The notes under the pieces: model-generated
The model's database searches: none
What the model was told of the DNA's origin: nothing
Seen by the model: the letters and a program-made list of their open reading frames with translations, nothing else
Position numbers and translations under genes: made by a program
Assembly (NCBI GenBank): GCA_003565625.1
Contig: PXBD01000044.1
Coordinates: forward strand, 1 to 64,000
Reading direction: 5' to 3'
Length of the DNA: 64,000 nt
Origin: Gammaproteobacteria bacterium
Lineage (GTDB): Bacteria > Pseudomonadota > Gammaproteobacteria > Xanthomonadales > Wenzhouxiangellaceae
Shown: in pieces, positions 45,125 through 53,903 of the stretch
Numbering within the stretch: position 1 is the first letter of the stretch
Layout of the letters: every line of letters starts with the position of its first letter

Positions 45125-46030
45125 TCATACCCGGTCCTTCGGGTCGAGCGCATCGCGCAGCCCGTCACCCAGAAAATTGAACGCAAACAGCGTCACGGCC
45201 AGAAAAGCGGCCGGAAACAGCAGCGACCAGGGCGCGGTTTCGAGCTCCTGGGCACCCTCGTTGACCAGCGCACCCCATGAGGTCAGCGGCTCCTGCACAC
45301 CAAGACCGAGAAAACTCAGAAAACTCTCGACCAGAATGACCTGCGGAATGGTCAGGGTGACATAGACAATCACCACACCAAGCAGGTTGGGCACGATATG
45401 GCGCCGGATGATCTGCCACTCGGTCGCGCCACAGGCGCGCGCGGCCTCGACGAAATCCTTGTTCTTCAGGCTCAGGGTCTGGCCACGGACGATCCGCGCC
45501 ATATCCAGCCAGTTGACCGCACCGATGGCGACGAAGATCAGGAATATGTTGCGCCCGAAAACCACCATCAGCACAATCACGAAGAACATGAAAGGCATGG
45601 CGTAAATGCCATCGACAAAACGCATCATGATGTTGTCGATGCGGCCGCCAAAAAAGCCGGCCACGGCCCCGTAGGAAACCCCGATCACCAGCGATACCAT
45701 GGTGGCGACCAGGCCCACCAGCAGGGAAATCTGGCCGCCGATCATGGTTCGCACGAACAAGTCACGGCCCAGCGCATCGGTTCCGAACAGGTGGCCGGTT
45801 TCCAGCGACGGCGGCGTGGAATAGTGATCCCAGTCCGGGATTTCGTGATCCCATTCGCTCAGCCATGGGCCCACGAGGACCATGATCACCATCACACCCA
45901 GCGTCCCCAGGGCAACCACGGCGGCCTTGTTCTTCAGCAACCGATGCCAGGCGTCCACGTACAGCGAGCGACGACGCATGCTGCGCGTGTCGAGCGCACG
46001 ATCAAAGGCATCCCGTGTCGTTTCCCTCAT
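45125..46030 (-). CDS. oppC: oligopeptide ABC importer permease C
   Basis: A 301-residue inner-membrane permease with six predicted helices. It has the EAA-loop type motif EAARACGATEWQIIRRHIVPN that contacts the ATPases, and the OppC-type start with a cytoplasmic tail followed by the first helix (KAAVVALGTLGVMVIMVLVG) and FGTDALGRDLFVRTM. It lies three bases after oppB. Confidence 0.95.
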   Translation of the reverse strand: MRETTRDAFDRALDTRSMRRRSLYVDAWHRLLKNKAAVVALGTLGVMVIMVLVGPWLSEWDHEIPDWDHYSTPPSLETGHLFGTDALGRDLFVRTMIGGQISLLVGLVATMVSLVIGVSYGAVAGFFGGRIDNIMMRFVDGIYAMPFMFFVIVLMVVFGRNIFLIFVAIGAVNWLDMARIVRGQTLSLKNKDFVEAARACGATEWQIIRRHIVPNLLGVVIVYVTLTIPQVILVESFLSFLGLGVQEPLTSWGALVNEGAQELETAPWSLLFPAAFLAVTLFAFNFLGDGLRDALDPKDRV

Positions 46031-46033
46031 CGC

Positions 46034-46966
46034 TCAGGCGCCCTGCTCATCGTAGCGAATGCGCGGATCCAGCCAGGCGTAAATCAGGTCGACCAGGAAA
46101 TTGAACAGGATGATCAGCATGCCGTAGAGAATGACCACGCCCATGACCAGGGTGTAGTCGCGATTAAGCGCACCCTGGACAAAGTAGGATCCGATCCCGG
46201 GAATGGTAAAAATCCGCTCGACCACCACCGAACCGGTCAGGATGGCCGCAGCCGCAGGGCCCAGGTAGGAAATCACCGGCAACAGCGCCGGCTTGAGGGC
46301 GTGGTTGAACAGGATTTCCTTTTCCGGCATTCCCTTGGCGCGGGCGGTGCGAATGAAACTCGAGCGCAAGACCTCGATCATCGAGCCGCGGGTAATGCGC
46401 GCCACGTAAGCGATCATCGGCAGGGCCAGGGTGACGACGGGCAGCACCATGCGTGCCGGCGAGAACTCCCAACCACCCGCCGGCAGCCAGCCCAGGGTAA
46501 TGGCAAACAGCAGAATCAACAGCGGCGCCATGACGAAATTGGGAATGGAAAGACCAATCATGGCGACGCCCATGATGGAGTAATCCGCCGGCCGGTTCTG
46601 ACGCAGGGCGGCCCAGGCTCCGATGGGAATTCCTATCGTCAGCGCCACCAGCAAGGCCAACCCGCCCAGGGTGAACGATACCGGTGCTCCCTGCGCGATG
46701 AGATCGTTCACCGTCCAGTCCAGGTAATGGTAGGACGGCCCCAGATCCAGGCGCGCGATCTGCCAGAGGTAGCGCAGGTACTGGACCGGCAACGGTTCAT
46801 CAAGATGGTACTTGGCGGCCAGGTTGGCCTCGATGTCCGGCGGCAAGGCCCGCTCGGAATCAAATGGCCCACCCGGCGCGATTCGAATCAGGAAAAACGC
46901 GAACGTGATCAGCAGGAACAGCGTTGGTATCGCCGAGGCCAGTCGCTTGATGGAGTAGCCGATCAT
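46034..46966 (-). CDS. oppB: oligopeptide ABC importer permease B
   Basis: A 310-residue permease with six helices, starting MIGYSIKRLASAIPTLFLL in the typical OppB/DppB manner. The ATPase-contacting loop is TARAKGMPEKEILFNHALKPA, and the C-terminus ends VDLIYAWLDPRIRY, both hallmarks of the family. Its start overlaps the end of oppA by 4 bases. Confidence 0.95.
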   Translation of the reverse strand: MIGYSIKRLASAIPTLFLLITFAFFLIRIAPGGPFDSERALPPDIEANLAAKYHLDEPLPVQYLRYLWQIARLDLGPSYHYLDWTVNDLIAQGAPVSFTLGGLALLVALTIGIPIGAWAALRQNRPADYSIMGVAMIGLSIPNFVMAPLLILLFAITLGWLPAGGWEFSPARMVLPVVTLALPMIAYVARITRGSMIEVLRSSFIRTARAKGMPEKEILFNHALKPALLPVISYLGPAAAAILTGSVVVERIFTIPGIGSYFVQGALNRDYTLVMGVVILYGMLIILFNFLVDLIYAWLDPRIRYDEQGA

Positions 46967-48690
46967 CCGGATTCCGCCGCCTCGGGAGGGACCACGGGCG
47001 CGCCGTCCTGCTGTTCGCCCTGTTCGCGCAGGAGAAACATGTGCCGGGTCAGGTGCTGGTCCATGATGTTTTCTTGCCAGCCGACCAGGCGCGGATCGAC
47101 CAGGCGCTTGGATACATAAATAAACACCGGCAGCACAACCTGATCGTCGAGCAGGATGCGTTCGGCCTCGGCCATGAGATTGCGCCGGCGCGAGGGAATC
47201 CGCTCGGCTGCAATCTGCTCGAGCAGACGGTCGAAGCTGGGGTTGTCGTAGCCGGCGTCATTGCGACCGTGGCCGCTATGAAACAATTCCAGAAAGGTGA
47301 ATGCATCCCGGTAATCGCCAATCCAGCCGGACCGGAACACCTGGGTCACGCGGCGCTGGGCGCGGTTTTGCAGAAACACCCGAAACTCTTCATTGACCAT
47401 CCGGGTGCGCACACCGAGTACATCTTTCCACATCGCGGCCATGGCCACGGCAATACGACGGTGGTTTTCCGAGGTGTTGTAGCGCAACTCCACGGTCAGC
47501 GGATTGTCCTCGGAATAGCCGGCCTGGTGGTACAGCCGCAGCGCCTCGGCCTCTCGCTCCTGCTGGGTCCAGGTCTGGTATTCGCGCTCCGGCGGATCGT
47601 AGTCGGGCAGCCCGGGCGGCACCAGGTTGAAGGTCGGGATCTCACCGAACTGACTGACCCGTTCGGTCAGGATGTCGCGATTGACCGCCAGATTCAGCGC
47701 CCGGCGCAGGGCCAGGTTGTCGCGAAACGGCTCGCGAGTCAGATTGAAGGAAAAAAAGTAGGTGCCGAACCAGGGCGAGATCATCAAGGCCTGTTCCATG
47801 TTGCGCTGCAGCCAGCGGAACTGGCCATTCGGCACCTGGTAGGTCCAGTGCAGGTCGCCGGCCCGGAATCGATTGAACTCGGAATTGACGTCTTCGAACG
47901 GGTAAAACACCACGCGCTCGACGATGACCTCATCGGCAGCCCGAAAGTGCGGGTTGCGCTCCAGTTCCACCCGGGCGCGGATCTGCCAATCGCGCAGCCG
48001 GTAGGCCCCATTGGAGACCAGGTTGCCGGGTCGCACGTGGGCGCTGCCGTGGGCCTCGTAGCTGGGTCGGTGGACGGGGAAAGTCGTCGGGTGAGTGAGC
48101 AGACCCAGGAAATAGGGCGTGGGGTCGTCCAGACGCACCTGGAAGGTGGTTGGACTGAGCGCGCTCACCCCCAGCTCTTCGGGCGGCAGCCGGCCGGCAA
48201 ACACCGCCTCGGCGTTGACCACCGGGGCCAGCATGCGCCCGTAGGCCGCTGCGGTGGCCGGGTTTACGACCCGCCGCCAGGACCAGACGAAGTCCTCGGC
48301 CGTGACCGGATCACCGTTGCTCCAGCGGCCTGCAGGATCCAGGTAAAAGGTATAAGTCAAACCGTCGCGGCTGATATCCCAGTGGGCCGCGGCCCCGGCA
48401 ACAACGCGTCCATCCGGCGTGGTGGTCGCCAGTCCCTCGAACAGATCGCGCAGGATATTGGAGCTGGGCACGCCCTCGGCCAGGTGCGGGTCCAGCGTCT
48501 GCGGCTCCTCACCATTACCGCGCATGACCACCTGCTCGGCGGCCAGCACATGCTCCATCGGGCGGCCCTGGTCGTCAAACTCCACGGCCACCGGCTGCGG
48601 CAGGCGCGGTGCACGCGGCGACTCCTCGCCGGCCTGTTCGGCCTGACAGGCAACCAGCAACAACGCGCCCAGCACGCAAAACAGCCTCAT
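46963..48690 (-). CDS. oppA: oligopeptide-binding lipoprotein
   Basis: A 575-residue extracytoplasmic solute-binding protein (family 5). The signal is a lipobox (LLLVAC near residue 15), so it is lipid-anchored, unlike E. coli OppA, which is soluble in the periplasm. Family motifs include TLDPHLAEGVPSSNILRDLFEGL near the N-terminus (in two pieces), SRDGLTYTFYLD and a C-terminal fold with LMAEAERILLDDQVVLPVFI. ATG 48690 is chosen to give the signal peptide. First gene of the opp operon; divergent from gshA across 126 bases that hold no clear promoter I could assign. Confidence 0.93.
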   Translation of the reverse strand: MRLFCVLGALLLVACQAEQAGEESPRAPRLPQPVAVEFDDQGRPMEHVLAAEQVVMRGNGEEPQTLDPHLAEGVPSSNILRDLFEGLATTTPDGRVVAGAAAHWDISRDGLTYTFYLDPAGRWSNGDPVTAEDFVWSWRRVVNPATAAAYGRMLAPVVNAEAVFAGRLPPEELGVSALSPTTFQVRLDDPTPYFLGLLTHPTTFPVHRPSYEAHGSAHVRPGNLVSNGAYRLRDWQIRARVELERNPHFRAADEVIVERVVFYPFEDVNSEFNRFRAGDLHWTYQVPNGQFRWLQRNMEQALMISPWFGTYFFSFNLTREPFRDNLALRRALNLAVNRDILTERVSQFGEIPTFNLVPPGLPDYDPPEREYQTWTQQEREAEALRLYHQAGYSEDNPLTVELRYNTSENHRRIAVAMAAMWKDVLGVRTRMVNEEFRVFLQNRAQRRVTQVFRSGWIGDYRDAFTFLELFHSGHGRNDAGYDNPSFDRLLEQIAAERIPSRRRNLMAEAERILLDDQVVLPVFIYVSKRLVDPRLVGWQENIMDQHLTRHMFLLREQGEQQDGAPVVPPEAAESG

Positions 48691-48816
48691 TCCAGCCACA
48701 ACCGGTGCGCCAGAGGGACATCCCTGACGTTGTCTGTGAACTCGCGCACTTCGGGCCATGCAAACGCACTCGGAAATGAGGATAATTGCGGCTCCATTCT
48801 ATCTCGGTGGTGAACC

Positions 48817-50187: not shown

Positions 50188-50724
50188 TCAAGCCGTCTCC
50201 CACTGGCCAGGCTGCAGCTGGCCGAGTTCGTAGGCTCCGATGCGGGTGCGGATCAGGCGCAGGGTGGGCAGGCCGACGGCGGCGGTCATCCGCCGGACCT
50301 GGCGGTTACGACCTTCGGTGAGGGTGATTTCCAGCCACGAGGTGCGCTTGCCCGGGCGCGGCTGCACCGCCGGTGCGCGCTTCCACAACCAGCCCGGCGC
50401 GCGCGCGAGCAAACGCAGCTCGGCCGGACGAGTAGGTCCATCCTTGAGCACAACACCGCGCCGCAAACGCTCCATTGCGGCGGTATTCGGCACACCCTCG
50501 ACCTGCACCAGATAGGTTTTGCCGGTTTCGGACGCCGCGTTGGCCAGAGCGTTTTTCAGACGGCCATCGTCGGTCAGGATCAGCAGACCCTCGCTGTCGA
50601 AATCCAGCCTCCCGGCGGCATACACGCCCGGCATGTCGATGTAGTCGGCCAGGGTGGCACGAGCCTGGCGATCGGTAAACTGCGCCAGCACCCGGAACGG
50701 CTTGTTGAAGCGCAGCGTCGGCAC
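50188..50724 (-). CDS. rluE: 23S rRNA pseudouridine synthase, RluE-like
   Basis: A 178-residue RsuA/RluB/RluE-family enzyme without an S4 domain. The catalytic aspartate is in AAGRLDFDSEGLLILT (near residues 38-53), and EGRNRQVRRMTAAVG is the family C-terminal motif. Absence of S4 and small size suggest RluE, which modifies U2457 in E. coli 23S rRNA; specificity is inferred. It starts with GTG at 50724, seven bases after the stop of the AlgC-like gene, and converges with gshA. Confidence 0.88.
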   Translation of the reverse strand: MPTLRFNKPFRVLAQFTDRQARATLADYIDMPGVYAAGRLDFDSEGLLILTDDGRLKNALANAASETGKTYLVQVEGVPNTAAMERLRRGVVLKDGPTRPAELRLLARAPGWLWKRAPAVQPRPGKRTSWLEITLTEGRNRQVRRMTAAVGLPTLRLIRTRIGAYELGQLQPGQWETA

Positions 50725-50730
50725 CCCGAT

Positions 50731-53448
50731 TCAGGCCGGCAGGGCCAGGGCCGGATCGATGTCGGCAAGCAGCCCGGACACCCGCACGCGCAGGCGCTCA
50801 GCGGCGTGCTCATCTCGCCCTTCGATACGCACCAGCAGATGCCCGCGCGCCTCATCGACGACGATGCCGGCCCAGGCATCGGCCGACTCCAGCACCAGCC
50901 CGTAGTCATCCCGTACCAGGCCATCACCTGCCTGCTCGCAGAAACGCTCCAGCACTTGCCAGACCTGCAATCCGGCCGGGTCGAGCCGAACCAGCGGCAG
51001 GCTGACGCGCTCGGGCAGCTCGGCAAGGATCTGCTCGACCGAACGGGTATCGGCGGCCAGGATTTCCAGCAGGCGGCAGGTGGCGTGCAGACAGTCGGGC
51101 ACCAGGCTGTCGTCGCGACCAAGGAGCAATTGTCCTGAGAAACTGCCGGCCAGCGCGGCGCCCTGCTCCCGGGCCGCGGCCTCGATCGCGACCGGGCCCG
51201 GACCGGCCCGCACAACCGAACCACCCAGCGGCTCGGCCCAATGCTGGAGACGGCTTGAGGTCAGCGCATCACAGACCACGACCGCCCCGGGTTGAGTCGC
51301 CCACAATGAACGCGCCAGCAGCATCAGCAAGCTGTCCGGCCAGAGAATGTCGCCATTGCCCGCCACCAGGTTCACCCGCTGACCATCGCCGTCGAAAGCC
51401 AGACCAAGATCGGCGCCGAAGCTGCGCACGCACAGGCGCAGATCGTCCAGGTAGGCGGCGTTACCCGGGTCGGGCGGATGATTGGGAAAGGACCCGTCGA
51501 CATCGGCATACAGGGGGATCAAGTCGGCGCCAATGGCCTGGAACAAACGCGGCAACATCAGCCCGCAAACCCCGTTGGCGCAATCAACGACCACTTTGAG
51601 CGGGCGCTCCAGCTGGATCTCCGCGGCCAGACGCTCGATATAGCGCGTGCTGACCGCCAACTCCTCGAGCCCGCCCGTCTGCTCGCCAGTGCGGCTTGCC
51701 GCGTCATCGGCCAGACGCCGGGCAAGACGCGGTCCCTCCAGGGTTGCCCCATCCAGCACAATCTGCAGCCCGTTCCATTCGGCTGCCCGTTCGGAGCCAC
51801 TGACGATGACCCCGGACCGGTCAGCCACCTCCATGGCGGCAAAACGCAGCACCGGAGCCGGCACGGCACCCAACTGCAACGCATCGATACCGGATGCGCG
51901 CAGTCCCTGCACCAGCCCTTCAAGCAGGATCGGGCTGTGCAGACGACCGTCGCGGGCAACCACCAGACGCCGGCAGCCCGCCTCTGCGGCCAGACCACCG
52001 ACAGCAGCACCCAGCCGTTCGACAAAATCTGCATCAAAGCCGTCATCGGTTCGTCCGAACAGGCCTTCGGCGGTGACCAGGACAGACTCCGGCAGATCAG
52101 GCAGCGCTTGTTCCTCCTCCTCCAGCGCCAGCATCAGATCATCCTCATCCGGCCGCAGCGGAGCCGGTGAAGGAGGGCTGGCTGGCTCCACCGATTCCAC
52201 CTCATCGGCAGTGTCCTCGGCAGCTTGATCGACCATCTCCAGGGAAGCGGGCTCCTCGCTGACCGGGTTCGTGGCATCGTCCGTCGCCGGCGGCTGTTCG
52301 GTTTTGGGTGGAGTCGGCTCAGACTCCGTGGATAGATCCAGGATCAAGCTGTCAGGATCATCTTCTTCTACAGTGGGTAGTCCGGCCGGATCACCGCGCC
52401 CCTGGTCGGCGAAAAAATCGTCGTCCAGGGCCAGATGCAGACCCTCCGAGCCCGGGCCATCCGGTGCGGCTGCATCCGGAGGTGCATCCTCGGTCTTGGC
52501 TTCGGTCTTGGCTGCAGACTCGGCAGGTTTCGGTTCGGGCTCCGGTGGTGAGGCGGCTGGCGGCGGGGTGGCTGGCGGCGTCCATTCCGCCACCTGAGGC
52601 GATTGTGCTGGTTTCGGCGCGGCCGTAGCCGGGCGTGCTGAAGAAGCTCGTCGGCTCCCGACCGATGGCGCTGGCTGGCGCCGCAGCAGCAAGAAGCCGG
52701 CCAGCAGCAGCACAAGCCCCATCCCGGCCAATGCAGCGGACTGTCCTGGTTCAAGGGCGATGGGCGTGCTGGCCGACCGCCGCCAGGCCACTTCCAGGCG
52801 ACTGCCGCTGACCGGCACCCGCCGCAGCTGCCCTGCATCGCTTTGACCATGGGTCCAGAAACCCTCCCAGCGCTGACCGCGCTGCTGACCGACAGACAAG
52901 AATCCGGACCACTCCGGCGGCGTCCAGTGGCGGGCAAGCGCAGGCGCCGGGAGGCCCAGCAGCAGCAGACCGGTCAATTCATCATCGGCCTCGATCCGCC
53001 GCGCCATCAACAACTCCGGCTGCCCGCCGGCTCCCTGCAGGCGCAGGTCCGGAGTCGTCCTCCCACTGCGGCGCGCCTCGATCAATAAATCCAGCATTAC
53101 ATAGTCAAGCGTCTCGTCCGGCTCCAGCGCTTCCAGCGCGGGCGGCACCGCAACAACAACGGGGATCGAGTCCACGCCCAGCGGGCCCAGCGTCCGGACC
53201 AGCAACGGGCCCGCATCACCGCCCGACTCCACGGTGTCGGCCAGCGCCCGCTGCACCGGGTCGGAGGCCAGTTCCTGGTCAACGTCCGTCAGCCAGCGCG
53301 CCGCCATCCGGGCAAACGTTCTGGCATCGGCCTCGGCCTGCTCCTGCTTGTGGACATCCTGCAAACCCGCGTATCCGGCCAGGCCGGCGCAAACAAGGCC
53401 AGCCAGCCCCAGCGCCATGACCACCAGACCGGCAGCGCGGGCGAACAT
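50731..53448 (-). CDS. AlgC-like membrane-anchored phosphohexomutase homologue, probably inactive
   Basis: A 905-residue protein. Two membrane helices (about 8-28 and 238-256) enclose an extracytoplasmic domain of about 205 residues; an acidic, proline-rich linker (260-450) follows, then a phosphomannomutase/phosphoglucomutase-type part (452-905). Pseudomonas algC genes also encode an N-terminally extended form next to dut, and dut is adjacent here. The mutase part keeps fold signatures (VARDGRLHSP, VVVDCANGVCG, DVDGSFPNHPPDPG) but not the active site: the phosphoserine loop reads SGSERAAEWNG instead of TGSHNPPDYNG, the metal loop DGDGQR instead of DGDGDR, the sugar loop GSFSGQ instead of GEMSGH, and the phosphate loop has lost SNT. 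It may be a pseudoenzyme; see findings. Confidence 0.85.
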   Translation of the reverse strand: MFARAAGLVVMALGLAGLVCAGLAGYAGLQDVHKQEQAEADARTFARMAARWLTDVDQELASDPVQRALADTVESGGDAGPLLVRTLGPLGVDSIPVVVAVPPALEALEPDETLDYVMLDLLIEARRSGRTTPDLRLQGAGGQPELLMARRIEADDELTGLLLLGLPAPALARHWTPPEWSGFLSVGQQRGQRWEGFWTHGQSDAGQLRRVPVSGSRLEVAWRRSASTPIALEPGQSAALAGMGLVLLLAGFLLLRRQPAPSVGSRRASSARPATAAPKPAQSPQVAEWTPPATPPPAASPPEPEPKPAESAAKTEAKTEDAPPDAAAPDGPGSEGLHLALDDDFFADQGRGDPAGLPTVEEDDPDSLILDLSTESEPTPPKTEQPPATDDATNPVSEEPASLEMVDQAAEDTADEVESVEPASPPSPAPLRPDEDDLMLALEEEEQALPDLPESVLVTAEGLFGRTDDGFDADFVERLGAAVGGLAAEAGCRRLVVARDGRLHSPILLEGLVQGLRASGIDALQLGAVPAPVLRFAAMEVADRSGVIVSGSERAAEWNGLQIVLDGATLEGPRLARRLADDAASRTGEQTGGLEELAVSTRYIERLAAEIQLERPLKVVVDCANGVCGLMLPRLFQAIGADLIPLYADVDGSFPNHPPDPGNAAYLDDLRLCVRSFGADLGLAFDGDGQRVNLVAGNGDILWPDSLLMLLARSLWATQPGAVVVCDALTSSRLQHWAEPLGGSVVRAGPGPVAIEAAAREQGAALAGSFSGQLLLGRDDSLVPDCLHATCRLLEILAADTRSVEQILAELPERVSLPLVRLDPAGLQVWQVLERFCEQAGDGLVRDDYGLVLESADAWAGIVVDEARGHLLVRIEGRDEHAAERLRVRVSGLLADIDPALALPA

Positions 53449-53903
53449 CAGCTGGACCCGGTGTGGCCGATGCCGCCATCGGCTCGATCGCTCGGGACAA
53501 AGTCCTCGACGATCTGAAGCGCCATCTGAACAACCGGCACGACCACAAGTTGGGCAATGCGCTGTCCCGGCTCGATGCGGATATCATCGCGGCCCCGGTT
53601 CCAGCAGGAGATCTTGACCTCACCCTGGTAATCGCTGTCGATCAAGCCGACCAGGTTGCCCAGCACCAGCCCCTGTTTGTGGCCCAGGCCGGAACGCGGC
53701 AACAACACTGCAGCCAGCTGCGGATCGTCCAGATGGATCGCCATACCCGAGGGAACCAGAGCCGTCTCGCCGGGCGCGAGGATCAGCTCGTCTTCCAGGC
53801 AGGCACGCAAATCCATGCCGGCCGAACCGGCGGTTGCGTACGTCGGCAGGGGCCAGGTCGAACCCAGCCGCGGATCAATGATGCGTACCTGCAACTGCCT
53901 CAC
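53448..53903 (-). CDS. dut: dUTP diphosphatase
   Basis: Trimeric dUTPase that keeps uracil out of DNA and provides dUMP. The 151-residue product has the five family motifs in order: [41 protein letters not shown] and the C-terminal [13 protein letters not shown]. All look intact. It starts with GTG 53903 preceded by GGCGG, and its stop shares one base with the start of the AlgC-like gene. coaBC, which often precedes dut, is missing; radC diverges from it. Confidence 0.96.

Follow-up and report, generated by a model that had tools for sequence, protein, structure and literature searches.

An eroded phosphohexomutase in a Cache-like membrane protein: a dut-linked AlgC orthologue of Wenzhouxiangella as a probable pseudoenzyme

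What can a phosphohexomutase homologue do that has lost most of its active site and is carried behind a long membrane-anchored front part? This question is raised by a gene for a 905-residue protein on the minus strand (positions 50731 to 53448) of a 64,000-nucleotide stretch of DNA, referred to below as the window, which stems from a Wenzhouxiangellaceae genome (contig PXBD01000044.1, assembly GCA_003565625.1). The window genome, G000 in our set, is a draft of 95 contigs with a completeness of 89.5%. An initial annotation, made from the sequence alone, regarded the protein as a homologue of AlgC that has become a pseudoenzyme and serves as a membrane-linked sugar-phosphate sensor or scaffold. 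The analysis described here argues strongly that the gene was inherited vertically as a long AlgC linked to dut and turned into a pseudoenzyme within Wenzhouxiangella. A pseudoenzyme reused as a transmembrane sensor protein is the best explanation of the locus as a whole, with a probability of roughly 0.6, and the proposed sugar-phosphate sensing finds little in its favor.

The loss of the active site is most readily seen by comparison with the phosphomannomutase/phosphoglucomutase (PMM/PGM) AlgC of Pseudomonas aeruginosa (1k35), which is the nearest solved structure by sequence (E-value 4.8e-78). In AlgC, Ser108 is the phosphoryl-transfer residue, residues 242 to 246 are Mg ligands and Lys285 contacts the ligand, and active-site residues of the family are extremely well conserved, as reported earlier (PMC3369874). 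AlgC numbering was transferred by pairwise alignment and 19 core active-site positions were scored. Five of these are retained in the window copy (Ser108, Asp242, Asp244, Arg247 and Ser327) and 14 are lost. The changes in the N-terminal half are Arg20 to Phe, His109 to Glu, Asn110 to Arg, Lys118 to Gln and Asp246 to Gln, followed by Lys285 to Leu, Lys305 to Gly, His308 to Pro, Glu325 to Ser and His329 to Gln, and finally by the phosphate loop, in which Arg421, Ser423, Asn424 and Thr425 are replaced by Val, Asp, Glu and Ala. The layout of the protein and its altered elements, the latter placed by pairwise and multiple alignments, are as follows.

50731 to 53448, minus strand: predicted Cache-type membrane protein with a putative pseudo-phosphohexomutase domain, 905 residues, orthologue of dut-linked long AlgC (open reading frame, alignment, synteny)
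53368 to 53436, minus strand: first membrane helix, residues ~5-27 (boundary set by eye; the model has one helix, 2-61)
52750 to 53367, minus strand: outer domain, residues ~28-233 (~205 residues), modelled as a Cache-type sensor domain (predicted model and Foldseek)
52681 to 52749, minus strand: second membrane helix, residues ~234-256 (model)
52087 to 52680, minus strand: Pro/Glu/Asp-rich cytoplasmic linker, residues ~257-454, without the LP[DE]W motif described below
50734 to 52086, minus strand: putative pseudo-phosphohexomutase domains I-IV, residues ~455-905 (Pfam, alignment, model)
52054 to 52071, minus strand: AEGLFG (460-465) in place of the YDIRG block, Arg20 lost
51784 to 51801, minus strand: phosphoserine loop SGSERA (550-555), S108-H-N-P replaced by S552-E-R-A, with Ser retained and HNP gone
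51379 to 51393, minus strand: metal loop DGDGQ (686-690), D242-G-D-G-D246 replaced by D686-G-D-G-Q690, third Asp gone
51130 to 51147, minus strand: sugar loop GSFSGQ (768-773) replacing GEMSGH (E325...H329)
50848 to 50862, minus strand: phosphate loop VVDEA (863-867) replacing RASNT (R421-A-S-N-T)

Further to these, the Lys285 block VKCTRRL of AlgC reads ALTSSRL in the window copy (K285 to L729), and the signatures S-H-N-P, D-G-D-x-D, G-E-M-S-G-H and R-x-S-N-T of active AlgC-type enzymes are all missing. The residue-level description in the initial annotation, including the loss of the YDIRG block and of the KxTRR-type motif, is thus borne out, apart from the placing of the phosphate loop. The loss of its Ser-Asn-Thr is real, but the loop precedes Arg874, which corresponds to Arg432 of AlgC, rather than following it, and Arg421 is lost as well. 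An artefact of alignment register was considered and rejected, since pairwise and multiple alignments agree on the altered loops. Among 105 intact relatives, 14 of the scored positions are invariant in all 105, the four of the phosphate loop in 104, and Lys305 is Lys or Arg in 95; given that 18 of the 19 positions vary in no more than one of the 105, the losses in the window copy are not due to chance.

The fold, by comparison, appears to be maintained, as had been claimed from the remaining motifs. Pfam phosphohexomutase domains I, II and III all score above cut-off, and the model of the mutase part (predicted local distance difference test score, pLDDT, 90.4; 57 sequences) keeps the four-domain phosphohexomutase fold, its best match being 1pcj with a template modelling (TM) score of 0.91 at 34% identity. 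Among NCBIfam equivalogs, PgmG matches best but falls short of its cut-off (260 of 600 bits); this is no sign of erosion, because the intact orthologue L199 from a sister genus (g6) likewise stays below it (487 of 600 bits).

The same kind of loss extends across the genus. Of 30 Wenzhouxiangella genomes compared, 23 have a main copy whose mutase part allowed scoring, limited to 15 positions in G004, G008 and G028 by truncation of the copy. All 23 are eroded, with at most 12 of the 19 positions retained. The eroded form is also present in two single-contig genomes (G018, where it lies on C1 at ~83,000-86,100, and G026). The unscored genomes comprise G005, with only the front part at a contig end, and G003, G006, G011, G012, G020 and G023, in which no long copy was found; the contig ends at or near dut in G012 and G023, and neither G003 nor G011 yielded a dut gene. 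Several sister copies retain Ser, His and the full metal loop, so that the loss is graded. In the other genera of the family, 12 of 13 genomes (five genera, g3 to g7) have intact copies, and the remaining one (G030, of genus g2) carries two eroded copies. For the latter (L046 and L047), a shared origin of the loss with that of Wenzhouxiangella is unsure on account of long branches. Of the best 80 named relatives, taken from a longer list, 76 retain all five scored motifs, the other four being three Wenzhouxiangella loci and a Stutzerimonas copy (L152), whose early motifs are intact and whose C-terminus looks frameshifted; eroded forms may exist elsewhere beyond these 80. As an aside, one contig titled as a Klebsiella pneumoniae metagenome-assembled genome (L155) has a gammaproteobacterial-like long AlgC and is perhaps misnamed or misbinned.

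The pattern of conservation has shifted between intact and eroded copies. Identity within the catalytic windows is 95% among six intact sequences of g6 versus 47% among 16 eroded copies, compared with 86% versus 65% for domain II outside these windows and 71% versus 35% for domain IV, the least conserved mutase domain of the eroded copies. The eroded set is more diverse in general, as the Cache part illustrates (34% versus 44% in g6). A conserved block, LCVRNF (673-677), in which Cys, Arg and Phe are constant in all 23 eroded copies, was considered as a gain linked to erosion and rejected: since the intact family members G031 and G034 also have it, it predates the loss.

Whether the eroded gene descends from the intact one or replaced it can be judged from its neighborhood and from the tree. 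The neighboring genes in the window are as follows.

53448 to 53903, minus strand: dut (dUTPase), upstream neighbor, whose stop overlaps the start of the 905-residue gene (TGATG)
50188 to 50724, minus strand: RNA pseudouridine synthase, downstream neighbor

A glutamate-cysteine ligase gene lies beyond the pseudouridine synthase gene on the opposite strand. The dut gene adjoins the AlgC-type gene in all 15 other genus stretches that reach far enough upstream and in all eight intact family stretches listed; the remaining main copies of the genus, several of them cut by contig ends, were placed by sequence and tree. As eroded and intact copies share the same dut neighborhood, they are orthologues and not replacements from outside. 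In a tree of the mutase part, built with the catalytic windows left out, all 28 eroded rows (23 main and five further copies) fall on one side of one branch (100/99), and horizontal replacement at the dut locus was rejected on the basis of synteny and this single branch. The exact place of the five further copies is unsure because of their long branches, three being flagged for long end branches and the other two sharing a branch of length 1.21. The window copy groups with that of G017 (100/99) and then with those of G001, G004 and G014 (100/99), forming a subclade with an altered metal loop. Scanning of the surrounding DNA returned six terminator-like sites versus 2.5 expected, and nothing promoter-like. 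Beside the locus, at 45125-48759 on the minus strand, lie peptide-transporter-like genes (two permease-like reading frames and one binding-protein-like frame, named by eye).

A second, intact phosphomannomutase was among the checks proposed in the initial annotation, and one is indeed present in the window genome. This stand-alone PMM/PGM (L002, 453 residues) has all motifs intact, its nearest structures being Xanthomonas phosphoglucomutase, and scores below the NCBIfam CpsG cut-off (575 of 801 bits); G000 also has an intact GlmM (L001). At E <= 1e-80, a stand-alone PMM/PGM occurs in 25 of the 30 genus genomes, with fragments in G003, G007 and G008, and was not found in G016 and G021, genomes that are 85% and 65% complete. 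The eroded G030 has it too. So does G035, alone among the 12 family genomes with an intact copy, none being found in the other 11. Because the erosion has one origin in the tree, this co-occurrence counts as one association and not as many independent ones. Furthermore, a stand-alone PMM/PGM and an intact AlgC occur together in G037, G048 and G057, which belong to a different family within the order, so the stand-alone enzyme alone does not bring on erosion.

The eroded gene does not behave like a decaying one. Ratios of nonsynonymous to synonymous substitutions (dN/dS, Nei-Gojobori) were obtained for the 14 least divergent pairs, of which 13 compare main copies and one compares copies of a paralogue described below; the pairs share genomes and are not independent. 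The ratio is 0.03-0.18 for the mutase part and 0.19-0.37 for the outer domain, the latter being higher in all ten pairs with both, though barely so in the paralogue pair (0.188 versus 0.182). In a neutral simulation, stops numbered ~5 on average after 0.1 substitutions per site and 24 after 1.0, whereas the frame of 905 codons has none. These comparisons speak strongly for a kept pseudoenzyme, which is under strong purifying selection in those sister lineages that are close enough to be measured. Taken together with the residue losses, their presence in 23 of 23 scored copies and the intact L002, they make it very likely, as the initial annotation had supposed, that the window protein is a pseudoenzyme.

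The front part, described earlier as a large membrane and extracytoplasmic portion, consists of two hydrophobic helices around ~205 residues, followed by the acidic linker; the helices were taken from the predicted model and their hydrophobicity was judged by eye. The model of the front 262 residues (pLDDT 88.2; 43 sequences) begins with a membrane helix that continues as a long helix, followed by a mixed alpha/beta domain and a second membrane helix. A Foldseek search with the outer domain gave 47 PDB matches at E <= 0.001, and every one of them appears to be a Cache or tandem-PAS sensor domain or a model that includes such a domain; among them are KinD, Mlp37, DctB, PctA/B/C, Tlp3, CqsR and PcrK. 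The TM-scores are moderate (0.33-0.52 by query length), the Pfam scan gave no match in the outer part of the window protein, Cache profile included, and dCache_1 appears weakly (best E 0.011) in three of the 43 front-part rows scanned, with no firm family, so that the Cache assignment rests on the model. On this basis, the outer domain is probably, and with rather high confidence, a Cache-type sensor domain. As the front-part alignment consists mostly of intact long AlgC, the assignment extends to these, whose front part is likely Cache-type in the predicted fold as well.

A possible link to signaling emerges from sister species, some of whose genomes carry, outside the dut locus, a second copy that is more degenerate. 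In G002, G009, G027 and G030, a gene for Cache part, linker and degenerate mutase is followed ~65-115 bases on by a gene for a Ser/Thr kinase (~300 residues) on the same strand, and in two further genomes the partner of the kinase lacks the mutase part.

L049:882-4160 (G002), L048:670-4053 (G009), L050:1423-4954 (G027) and L047:1387-4929 (G030): kinase-linked paralogue loci, kinase on the same strand
L223 (294-1367, reverse strand; G016) and L224:298-1419 (G024): kinase partner with Cache part and linker only, without mutase part, 358 and 374 codons

The six kinase-linked front parts form one clade (99/94). A close kinase (at least 55% identity) is encoded by 14 genomes of the genus, by G030 and by four of six g6 genomes, where AlgC is intact. 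Many front parts of the genus also share a linker motif, LP[DE]W (DLPDWLLD-like), which is found in all 18 main-copy front parts outside the subclade of the window copy whose linker was read (for example L008, L014 and L065) and in five of the six kinase-linked copies, but in none of seven long intact family members and none of the best 80 named rows (58 of them of at least 683 residues). Searched as DNA, it gave seven matches in 13 genomes (one in a reversed control), six of them within this protein family and the seventh in an unrelated 368-residue protein of G018, which we take to be a JmjC-type oxygenase. Kinase-linked paralogues and linker motif would thus point to signaling in sister species, while the window genome itself has neither.

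In the mechanism we propose, mutase activity would have been lost from the dut-locus protein and the flux would be carried by the stand-alone, XanA-like PMM/PGM. A cue or ligand outside the cytoplasm would be read by the Cache-type domain and relayed by the second membrane helix, then by the flexible acidic linker, to the pseudomutase. There, domain II above all would provide the surface at which a cytoplasmic partner docks or receives the output. Paralogues with this kind of front part sit next to the Ser/Thr kinase gene in some sister species. The outer domain is the likelier sensing part, and the pseudomutase is plausible as a scaffold or output module. The balance tips slightly towards a signaling or docking role of the whole protein.

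Several observations count against this proposal. In the reduced genomes G006 and G020, dut directly adjoins the glutamate-cysteine ligase gene, ~30 and ~10 bases apart or less (L217:2092-3948 and L218:3620-5444), and neither the eroded gene nor the pseudouridine synthase is present in the stretch read at dut. The eroded gene was therefore removed there, and, missing from its place, it appears dispensable in these two genomes. The less eroded copies retain Ser108 and the metal loop and might keep some activity. With regard to the kinase, 13 of the 19 close-kinase loci, four of them in g6 with its intact AlgC, have no such partner in the stretch read (up to 1.5 kb on each side), so no fixed link exists between kinase and pseudomutase. 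A close orthologue of the kinase is missing from the window genome (best match 42% over residues 20-231), and the window gene is followed by the pseudouridine synthase and not by a Ser/Thr kinase. The linker motif is missing from all five members of the window's subclade, the window linker included. Finally, this subclade is too divergent to supply a dN/dS pair, and the evidence for maintenance there is the open 905-codon frame and the identity to G017, the nearest copy (54% in the mutase part over tree columns).

Of the alternative explanations, the one that survives best holds that only the membrane Cache part still matters and that the mutase domain is a passive leftover in the course of being lost. 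The partners in G016 and G024 that lack a mutase part fit this well, as does the low conservation of domain IV. It nevertheless seems unlikely, because the mutase dN/dS of the main copy lies below that of the outer domain in nine of nine pairs with both, and domain II is far better conserved than the Cache domain (65% versus 34% identity in the 16 eroded copies). Alternatively, the pseudomutase might bind the stand-alone PMM/PGM or its products and thereby tune that enzyme. The stand-alone enzyme is indeed found across the genus along with the eroded copies, and another mutase, GlmM, has been solved in complexes with the cyclase domain CdaA (PDB titles); yet G006 and G020 retain the enzyme after the loss of the eroded gene, and G035 combines it with an intact AlgC, which leaves this idea improbable.

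The suggestion of the initial annotation, a non-catalytic protein that still binds sugar phosphates, has a precedent in fish PGM5: according to one report, the herring protein binds substrate without measurable activity (PMC7761743), and the maintained fold of the window protein would be compatible with this. Yet the substrate-binding site of PGM5 is described there as conserved (PMC7761743), whereas the window copy has replacements at Arg20, Lys118, Lys285, His308, Glu325 and His329 and throughout the phosphate loop. As the sugar and phosphate loops are gone, a sugar-phosphate sensor is unsupported; the probability that the old active site still senses sugar phosphates appears low on residue grounds, and a sensor of the PGM5 kind is quite improbable. 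That the protein remains an active phosphohexomutase, or a phosphatase, with different catalytic residues is very improbable: Ser552 and two of the three metal Asp residues are kept, several sister copies keep even more of the site, and G000 and G017 share three replacements (Gly749, Asp865 and Glu866), but 14 of 19 core residues are lost, the two copies differ at the other 11 lost positions, and an intact PMM/PGM is encoded in the same genome. A pseudogene or assembly artefact, for which the draft state of the genome could be held responsible, is scarcely credible given 23 genomes with eroded copies, purifying selection in close pairs and a frame free of internal stops, where neutral change would bring ~5 at 0.1 substitutions per site.

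The window protein can be set against several known systems. With long dut-linked AlgC, the window protein shares the dut neighborhood, the modelled four-domain fold and the membrane and outer front part, but its active site is lost. The stand-alone PMM/PGM of the Xanthomonas citri type (5bmn), for which we assume the name XanA, belongs to the same superfamily and is represented by L002 elsewhere in the genome; unlike the window protein, it has no front part and does not lie at the dut locus. Cache receptors have kinases or chemotaxis modules as their outputs. KinD, DctB, PctA and Mlp37 resemble the modelled outer domain between its two membrane helices, but the output of the window protein would be a dead metabolic enzyme. 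GlmM-CdaA, in which a phosphohexomutase is bound to a signaling-related cyclase, offers a partial parallel; GlmM is an active enzyme, unlike the mutase part of the window protein, and the cyclase is subject to regulation. A dead phosphohexomutase is already known from vertebrates: PGM5 (aciculin) has the phosphohexomutase fold without activity and is a structural muscle protein, as given in two reports (PMC7761743; PMC5570346). In the account of the former, however, PGM5 still binds substrate and has an active site that is close to normal, whereas the window protein has lost the binding loops and carries a sensor-like membrane front part. Literature searches on pseudoenzymes and on Wenzhouxiangella phosphomannomutase returned no dead phosphohexomutase of bacteria, the matches on inactive paralogues having been viewed in part; no paper title on this protein was among the matches listed, and phosphomannomutase is not mentioned by that name in the main text of the paper on the cultured strain AB-CW3, for which a proteome is public (PXD021036).

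The genus thus provides a natural experiment, in which graded loss of an active site can be followed in a protein under selection, while sister genera with intact copies serve as a control and the eroded genomes themselves encode an intact enzyme as a replacement. Tentatively, these proteins could represent a new class of bacterial transmembrane receptors, in which a Cache sensor and an acidic linker are joined to a dead phosphohexomutase as an output or docking module, coupled to a kinase in some paralogues and with the module discarded in two. The Cache-type reading of the front part also yields a testable idea for intact long AlgC. If it is true, the long AlgC of Pseudomonas and Xanthomonadales would by extension be a sensor-enzyme of the membrane that regulates the supply of sugar nucleotides through its outer domain.

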